A stretch of 64,000 bases of DNA, from NCBI GenBank assembly GCA_023667315.1, contig JAMPAI010000010.1:1-64000 (forward strand). Reading direction: 5' to 3'. Each line of letters begins with the position of its first letter. Position 1 is the first letter of the stretch. The stretch comes from Ruminococcus flavefaciens. Lineage in GTDB: Bacteria > Bacteroidota > Bacteroidia > Bacteroidales > P3. A program made the position numbers and the translations under genes. Below the pieces are notes generated by a model, which searched no databases, was not told the origin of the DNA, and saw nothing but the letters and a program-made list of their open reading frames with translations. Positions 620-45,950 of this stretch are shown here, in pieces.

Positions 620-704
620 GGAAAGTTGGCAGAGTGGTCGATTGCGGCGGTCTTGAAAACCGTTGAGGCGCGAGCCTCCGGGGGTTCGAATCCCTCACTT
701 TCCG
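620..704 (+). tRNA. tRNA-Ser(TGA)
   Basis: The acceptor stem GGAAAGT (620-626) pairs with ACTTTCC (697-703), followed by discriminator G at 704. The anticodon loop reads CTTGAAA, giving anticodon TGA, and the T arm has the GGTTCGAATCC signature. A long variable arm with its own stem separates anticodon and T arms, as expected for class II serine tRNAs. The 3' CCA is not encoded and must be added after transcription. A palindromic intergenic element begins 2 nt downstream. Confidence 0.95.
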
Positions 705-706
705 CA

Positions 707-832
707 AAAAAATGTTTTTGAACGGTGATCTGCTGCGTTGTCAGCCGAAGTTTATCTCGGTCACGTACGAAAGTACGCTCCCTCGAAAACTCCGGCTTCC
801 GCCTTGCATCTCACCATTCAAAAACATTTTTT
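707..832. repeat. Palindromic intergenic element, copy A
   Basis: A 126-bp element with 22-nt terminal inverted repeats (707-728 and 811-832, 21 of 22 positions complementary). Inside are a second pair of complementary arms (roughly 741-755 and 786-798) and an apical hairpin CGTAC-GAAA-GTACG within the core 756-782. The core matches 24 of 27 positions with copies B and C near 45.7-45.9 kb. It sits between tRNA-Ser and the convergent mpl gene and both ends have A/T runs, so it could also act as a two-way terminator here. Confidence 0.75.
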
Positions 833-851
833 CTTGCCAGAATGTTCTGAT

Positions 852-889
852 TTCTGCTGCGTTGTCAGCCGCAGTTTATCTCGGCCACG
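852..889. repeat. Partial copy (D) of the palindromic element
   Basis: About 38 nt repeat the left half of copy A (728-765) with only three or four differences, then similarity stops before the apical hairpin. The right half is missing, so this is a truncated copy. It ends some 12 bp before the mpl stop codon at 902-904. Confidence 0.6.
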
Positions 890-901
890 CACTTTCACCC
901 C

Positions 902-45666: not shown

Positions 45667-45674
45667 CAAAGGTA
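45667..45674 (-). promoter_or_regulatory. -7 box of dnaG (TACCTTTG)
   Basis: On the minus strand a perfect TAnnTTTG octamer is followed by 7 nt and the dnaG ATG, predicting a transcript with almost no leader. Confidence 0.55.
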
Positions 45675-45690
45675 CAAAAAAAGCGTTCTG

Positions 45691-45803
45691 AACGGCCACC
45701 TGCTTCGCCGGGAGCCCTATGGGAGCTTGGTCACGTACTGAAGTACGCTCCCGCGCATCCCATAGGGCTCCCGGCAGTAAGTTCGGCGAAGCAGATTGCC
45801 GTT
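45691..45803. repeat. Palindromic intergenic element, copy B
   Basis: A 113-bp element whose ends (45691-45710 and 45784-45803) are complementary with three mismatches. A second, perfect 15-bp pair (45710-45724 with 45758-45772) encloses the core 45726-45752 with the apical hairpin CGTAC-TGAA-GTACG. The core is identical to that of copy C over 27 nt. It lies 32 bp upstream of dnaG, between divergent promoters. Confidence 0.75.
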
Positions 45804-45820
45804 AACCCCCATTCCTCTCT

Positions 45821-45947
45821 AAAAAAACGGTTTTAATGGTGAGATGCGAGCCGAAAACCGGAGGGGCGCGCGGGAGCGTACTTCAGTACGTGACCAAGTG
45901 CCCCGAGTTTTTCGGCGAAGCAGATTGCCGTTAAAACCGTTTTTTTT
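45821..45947. repeat. Palindromic intergenic element, copy C (inverted)
   Basis: A 127-bp element in the opposite orientation to copy B. Its ends contain perfect 16-bp complementary arms (45821-45836 with 45932-45947); inner arms pair GCCGAAAA with TTTTCGGC. The core at 45872-45898 matches copy B exactly. It ends 3 bp before the -7 box of the glycogen operon, so it covers the place of the -33 element. Together with copy B it accounts for nearly all of the 334-bp gap between dnaG and the debranching enzyme. Confidence 0.75.
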
Positions 45948-45950
45948 CCG

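Follow-up and report, generated by a model that had tools for sequence, protein, structure and literature searches.

An ERIC-family repeat in a Bacteroidales genome, probably mobile and under selection as a folded bottom strand

The repeated element in our window (the whole 64-kb stretch of DNA that was analyzed) almost certainly belongs to the ERIC family and would form a Bacteroidales branch of it, as judged by sequence searches in both directions. ERIC, the Enterobacterial Repetitive Intergenic Consensus, is also known as IRU or RU-1 and is widely used for typing. Its hosts are given as Enterobacteriaceae and Vibrionaceae in the available part of a review (PMC10969869), and our source host, a member of the Bacteroidales, lies outside the reported range (Enterobacterales/Vibrionaceae), which is a range and not a defining trait. 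A preliminary description of this DNA had found no named family for the element; reciprocal covariance models instead assign it to ERIC, and it represents a new, divergent and structurally informative branch within a known family rather than a family of its own. On our reading, it is probably an ERIC-type miniature mobile element that is selected as a folded bottom strand and whose inner hairpins can be exchanged.

Two covariance models carry the homology argument: R1, built from 32 copies of the source genome (own copies), and R2, built from 38 Citrobacter and Ewingella ERICs alone and independent of the own copies. The own-copy alignments omit copy B, L032:1439 (half decayed), L033 and L035 (decayed or chance) and the copies found later by R1. 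The window holds the following features.

620..705, + strand: tRNA-Ser (tga), 3′ end abutting copy A (ARAGORN)
704..833, + strand: copy A, complete ERIC-family element (R1 130.3 bits; ERIC-only model R2 49.6 bits, E = 4.6e-10, full length)
707..722, + strand: left outer arm of copy A
759..781, + strand: conserved core of copy A, GGTCACGTAC-NNNN-GTACGCTCC
817..832, + strand: right outer arm of copy A, perfect complement of the left arm
851..894, + strand: decayed tandem copy beside A (37 of 44 bases equal to A at a spacing of 124)
45674..45806, + strand: copy B, deletion derivative without the right outer arm (R1 67.3 bits; intact in sister species G008)
45773..45806, − strand: end remnant of a further inverted element, common to G008 (by eye, from the G008 alignment)
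45820..45949, − strand: copy C, complete (R1 117.2 bits; R2 28.8 bits, E = 1.1e-4, full length)

Copy A was matched over 124–130 nt, and folds confirm an imperfect palindrome of ~127 bp; its left end lies at the 3′ end of the tRNA-Ser gene, and its inner arms start at 743 (AGCCG) and 793 (CGGCT). Copy C has outer arms at 45821–45836 and 45931–45946 and inner arms GCCGAAAA at 45850 and TTTTCGGC at 45909, and its neighbors by Pfam are dnaG on one side and a glycogen-debranching-enzyme gene on the other. Copy B contains a perfect 15-nt pair with halves at 45710 and 45758. All arm positions that the preliminary description gave for A, B and C are present where it placed them, and the truncated copy that it reported beside A is real, matching from 851 onward. 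Copy B is a true copy of the family, as had been claimed, but its right side is partly an accident of a deletion of ~51 bases that took the right outer arm, which the comparison with the intact G008 element reveals; R2 matched the core of copy B alone (E = 1.7e-4). The window copies are intergenic, with B and C between divergent genes, and the core occurs three times in the 64 kb versus a mean of 0.02 in 100 shuffles. Rfam at gathering score identified two tRNAs in the window and gave no match at the element copies. Below threshold, the best match around A reached 27.7 of 68 bits (the tRNA part) and miRNA hairpin models 12–18 bits, and the scan at B and C gave no match.

Because R2 was built from Citrobacter and Ewingella copies only, its search of the source genome is the independent homology test. 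It returned 30 places at E ≤ 0.01 in 2.93 Mb, and 30 of 30 coincide with R1 places; the model omits four of 42 gamma copies, which have few long-range pairs, and two Citrobacter and three Ewingella loci that were cut or odd-looking never entered it. Conversely, R1 recovered two E. coli ERICs over model positions 1–131 (38.7 and 39.7 bits; E = 1.2e-6 and 2.2e-6 in 255 kb). From 117 loci outside the source genome, 33 were chosen for reading, 35 were searched with R1 and 63 were included in a further search. R1 matched 27 of the 35 sources at full length with E ≤ 1e-5; the other eight were matched in the inner part only (L062, which also gave a weak full-length match, L087, L094, L109 and L142), in the core only (L084 and L149, both Lentisphaerae) or weakly (L039). 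The common core pattern GTCACNTAC-NNNN-GTANGCTCC matches own, Citrobacter and Ewingella copies; in other phyla the core was the search bait, and hence its conservation there is by construction. With a 44-mer derived from the ERIC-PCR primer sequences, ERIC is detected in 5375 of 5426 E. coli genomes.

With ERIC the element shares its length, imperfect palindrome and intergenic site, the core GTCAC-TAC-NNNN-GTA-GCTCC, the CTGC..CGTT and GCCTTGC blocks and possibly, as seen in some copies, TA at both ends. It differs in the phylum of its host, in outer arms that are rich in A/T tracts and vary widely between copies, and in Bacteroidales inner hairpins that differ and appear to be exchanged between loci.

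Across the source genome (2.93 Mb in 88 contigs), the core with up to three mismatches is found 37 times, versus three times for a reversed-pattern control. R1 gave 47 matches at E ≤ 0.01, eight of them the same place on the other strand, which leaves 39 places, some partial. Among 12 congeners, ten carry between 1 and 80 R1 matches (E ≤ 0.001) and two carry none. The element had been called a dispersed repeat, a reading against which a lack of further copies, or arms without complementarity, was to count; the ~39 places here and up to 80 in congeners, with complementary arms, bear the reading out. Tandem copies at spacings of 123–125 recur (A and its remnant, L019, L032 and contig C5). By eye, the right flanks of L004 and L005 also contain decayed tandem half-copies after intact elements.

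Outside the genus, R1 matches were found in one of 12 genomes from other genera of the family and in three of 16 from the order. The exact core is present in one of 395 sampled Bacteroidota genomes (the source genome alone) and in four of 274 from the class of Citrobacter, Citrobacter included; R1 with coarse scoring matched 16 of the 395 at E ≤ 1e-5, 14 of which belong to one family of another class. Genera g87 and g92 of this family (f35) reach E values of 8e-6 to 2e-9 without the exact core, possibly as a more distant branch. Sequence records with the exact core are titled Bacteroidales, Porphyromonas, Bacilli, Verrucomicrobia, Lentisphaerae, Deltaproteobacteria, Gammaproteobacteria, a Coriobacteriales MAG and others. 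Among the matches listed, there are at least 115 exact-core stretches from at least five phyla by record titles, which may mislead for MAGs through contamination, with isolates included among the Porphyromonas, Bacilli and Enterobacterales records. Core copies number 42 in Citrobacter, 19 in Ewingella, 26 in Porphyromonas and 96 in Verrucomicrobium GWF2, each with zero hits for the reversed pattern. We read this patchy range as that of a horizontally spreading element, and its origin is very probably mobile. The ERIC literature that we covered, to which some key primary ERIC papers do not belong, holds no report of genuine copies outside Gammaproteobacteria, a weak absence.

Three further observations concern where copies reside. 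Viral contigs of IMG/VR include none with the CGTAC core and 22 with a CTTAC core (L367–L388), possibly in host flanks of prophages. In the E. coli collection, 33 of 32,836 ERIC places are on plasmids, a possible transfer route. The Bacillales copies L041, L050, L051, L093, L102 and L114, several of them in tandem at ~120–124 bases and with weakly paired inner arms, adjoin 16S rRNA 5′ ends or tRNAs by eye.

In a structure-naive MAFFT alignment, 31 of 40 consensus pairs have compensated changes. Cells that changed on both sides and still pair number 274, compared with a shuffled mean of 88.2 (s.d. 8.2; 0 of 500 shuffles reach 274), and they drop to 51–134 when the partner is slid by one to three columns. 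These counts substantiate the covarying arms of the preliminary description, and together with the replacement of inner hairpins at orthologous sites they support its proposal that a single-strand fold is selected or copied. Of the apex that it described, the stem is kept, and the second pair of this stem covaries as G-C, T-A, A-T and C-G among four genomes, but the loop letters vary. With 19 different loops in 38 own copies, a conserved tetraloop is ruled out.

Comparison with sister species G008, whose matching stretches are 84–97% alike with those of the source genome, suggests how the arms diverge. We fetched 30 of 45 G008 matches, and a script linked 25 copy pairs, or 22 after removal of three tandem doubles. 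In 10 of these 22 orthologous pairs, the outer arms and the inner arms each show 85% identity or more. Five others (L007, L009, L011, L017 and L034) have outer arms 90–100% alike and inner arms only 51–69% alike, where unrelated copies have a mean of 0.53 and a 95th percentile of 0.70 (2,120 pairs); inspection by eye adds L032 as a sixth case of inner-hairpin replacement. The replaced inner arms are complementary again (by eye), and the limits of the exchanged hairpins lie near the conserved CTGC and GCA blocks. Possible donors were found for two of the six replacements: own L034 shares 98% of its inner arms with the G008 copy at the L032 locus, the anticodons of the tRNA-Ser neighbors confirming which of the L032 and L034 loci are orthologous, and own L007 shares 90% with L214 of G008. 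No donor hairpin was found for L009, L011 and L017. Within the source genome, L005 and L008 have inner arms that are 100% identical and outer arms that are 71% alike. Elsewhere, the full alignment of L022 gives 96% identity although its script-defined parts score lower, copy C (L003) has kept its inner but not its outer arms, and L001, L006, L008 and L013 differ in both arm sets or are poorly anchored.

Across all 25 source–G008 alignments, decayed copies and copy B included, 67 pairs are compensated, 35 are kept with one change and 908 are unchanged, whereas 106 have lost pairing through one side and 25 through both sides. Three compensated pairs, clustered, distinguish copy C between the two species. 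From these compensated changes and the inner-hairpin swaps, the arms appear to differ both by compensation in place and by exchange of whole inner hairpins, the latter being quite probable on the alignments. Complementarity could also be kept by quasipalindrome correction, a mutational process of arm-to-arm template switching that involves no selection and would suit both the perfect arms of differing sequence and the clustering at copy C. Such correction tends to erase unpaired loop positions, though, and these are conserved in most of the 32 aligned copies; moreover, the two replaced hairpins with possible donors resemble other loci (0.98 for L034 with G008 at L032; 0.90 for L007 with G008 L214) and not their own opposite arm. 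We consider this process improbable as the source of the pairing.

The comparison also indicates gain or loss at individual sites. The element is absent from the L029 site in G007 and G003; from the L014 and L240 sites in G003, with internally deleted copies in G008; and from the L021 site in G004 and G012, where a short stretch in G008 could be what is left of a deleted element. No orthologous site compared in congeners is cleanly empty and reveals a TA duplication. For ERIC, the available portions of two papers (PMC2229807 and PMC2759123) report TA at the ends and duplication of TA; here TAAAA occupies the left end in 13 of 36 own copies, eight of which also carry TTTTA at the right. These termini would fit a MITE moved by a DDE transposase (for example, IS630-like, with a TA target) that recognizes double-stranded terminal inverted repeats, but the terminal arms are unconserved, with a mean outer identity of 0.54 between non-orthologous own and G008 copies, and we regard this route as rather unlikely.

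The two strands fold unequally. The bottom strand (GGAGCGTAC...GTACGTGACC) gives the more stable fold in 227 of 235 copies under RNA parameters and in 219 of 235 under DNA parameters, with energies for bottom versus top of −60.5 versus −42.0 kcal/mol for the consensus, −70.5 versus −50.2 for copy A and −74.5 versus −53.3 for copy C. Near the apex, the bottom strand reads 5′-GGAG/UGAC-3′, a tandem G-A flanked by G-U (the G-U in 30 of 32 aligned copies), and other apparent mismatches of the top strand become U-G on the bottom strand, alternating with U-A and C-G. Much of the asymmetry sits in loops that are common by descent, and because shared loops are one inheritance, wobble in the helices is the more independent sign. 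In variable helices, top-strand A.C outnumbers G.U by 155:43 over ten groups, in which own and G008 copies share orthologues; the ratio is 103:39 without sites seen four times or more and 78:30 when G008 is also left out. Beside these totals without recurrent sites, the counts are 23:7 for own copies, 10:1 for Bacilli, 7:6 for Citrobacter (down from 26:6), 4:3 for Porphyromonas and 6:6 for Verrucomicrobia. Porphyromonas (4 A.C to 7 G.U) and Verrucomicrobia (6:6) do not show the wobble asymmetry. With moderate confidence, we propose that the bottom strand would be the selected form, and its antisense orientation to the upstream gene makes us lean toward single-stranded DNA over RNA.

Copies are also placed in one direction at gene ends. 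Orienting each by the strand that reads GGTCACGTAC and taking stop codons from frames of at least 100 codons, we found a stop codon in the left terminal zone of 22 of 38 own copies (17 TAA) and in the right zone of four. Five more own copies lie in sense orientation behind tRNA-Ser (three genes with different anticodons), tRNA-Ala and tmRNA (L001, L032, L034, L018 and L025), such that 27 of 38 start on a stop codon or a tRNA/tmRNA 3′ end in one orientation. Pooled over ten groups, which again contain orthologues shared by own and G008 copies, the left zone has a stop codon in 96 of 237 distinct copies and the right zone in 14, and random zones have one in 40 of 720. Left and right counts are 18 and 2 of 32 in G008, 16 and 2 of 21 in G001, 5 and 1 of 7 in G003 plus G007, 11 and 1 of 19 in Ewingella, 8 and 0 of 12 in a deltaproteobacterium, 5 and 1 of 32 in Porphyromonas and 5 and 0 of 33 in Verrucomicrobia; Citrobacter shows a weak bias (6 and 3 of 28) and Bacilli show none (0 and 0 of 15). 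In E. coli, the ybhI stop codon adjoins the ERIC at L152.

Sense placement at gene 3′ ends could mean that selection acts on the top strand in an mRNA or tRNA trailer, where it would serve as a hairpin for termination, processing or stability, with mobility secondary. The A-tract/T-tract outer arms resemble bidirectional terminators, and Yersinia ERICs affect the stability of upstream mRNA in an orientation-dependent manner, according to the text available of PMC2229807. Yet the strand that folds better runs antisense to the upstream gene, B and C sit between genes that diverge, just one of 12 genomes from other genera of the family has the element, the two E. coli ERICs examined have no T-tract, and at L021 and L240 a distinct terminator-like hairpin follows downstream (by eye). 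An RNA device of this kind therefore seems doubtful to us as the primary function. As the defining function of the whole family, a terminator is ruled out by the E. coli ERICs without a T-tract and the separate hairpins at L021 and L240.

Under the mobile-element reading that we prefer, a non-autonomous imperfect palindrome of ~127 bases would spread between and within genomes, its selected form being the folded bottom strand, either as single-stranded DNA handled in trans by a structure-reading enzyme or as RNA. Recognition would occur via the conserved loop and tandem G-A motifs, leaving arm sequence free to drift or to be swapped by gene conversion while pairing lasts. Insertion at the TA within TAA would keep the stop codon intact and put the top strand in a 3′UTR or tRNA trailer, where it would be tolerated, with a possible secondary effect on mRNA stability or termination. 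Mobilization specifically as single-stranded DNA is a tentative part of this scheme, conceivable at less than even chance. The mechanism of ERIC transfer is described as not elucidated in the part available of PMC2759123, and our literature search found no later answer on ERIC movement.

No mobilizer was found with a search that covered Y1_Tnp (PF01797). The REP-associated tyrosine transposase suggested by the preliminary description finds no support in this role: Y1_Tnp is absent from four of six copy-bearing genomes searched, among them the source (G000) and sister G008 with zero hits each; it is present in Ewingella and Porphyromonas. REP and REPIN elements, whose features we take partly from the available text of PMC3733652, are likewise palindromic, dispersed and intergenic, but the window element is much longer, has another core and occurs without Y1_Tnp in the source and three other genomes. 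The BrickBuilt MITEs of Porphyromonas gingivalis are another intergenic MITE of the Bacteroidales, a likeness at the level of description. Integron attC sites have variable complementary arms and conserved loops, and their folded bottom strand is favored. The element resembles them in all three respects, an analogy of mechanism alone.

A broader view, which we offer as speculative and rather less likely than not to hold, is that ERIC is a pan-bacterial hairpin family that lives and moves as a folded single (bottom) strand recognized by its structure, with arms as interchangeable cassettes and a widely available enzyme directing it to TA at gene 3′ ends; its conserved letters would then, just as speculatively, be the tandem G-A and G-U motifs of the bottom strand. 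Homologues in several phyla with free arms would provide a source of covariation, indicate which strand is functional and open the way to a strand-specific test of mobility. ERIC primers may match genuine elements outside Enterobacterales. Presence in distant phyla, placement at gene ends and lopsided folding would offer new handles on how such repeats spread.
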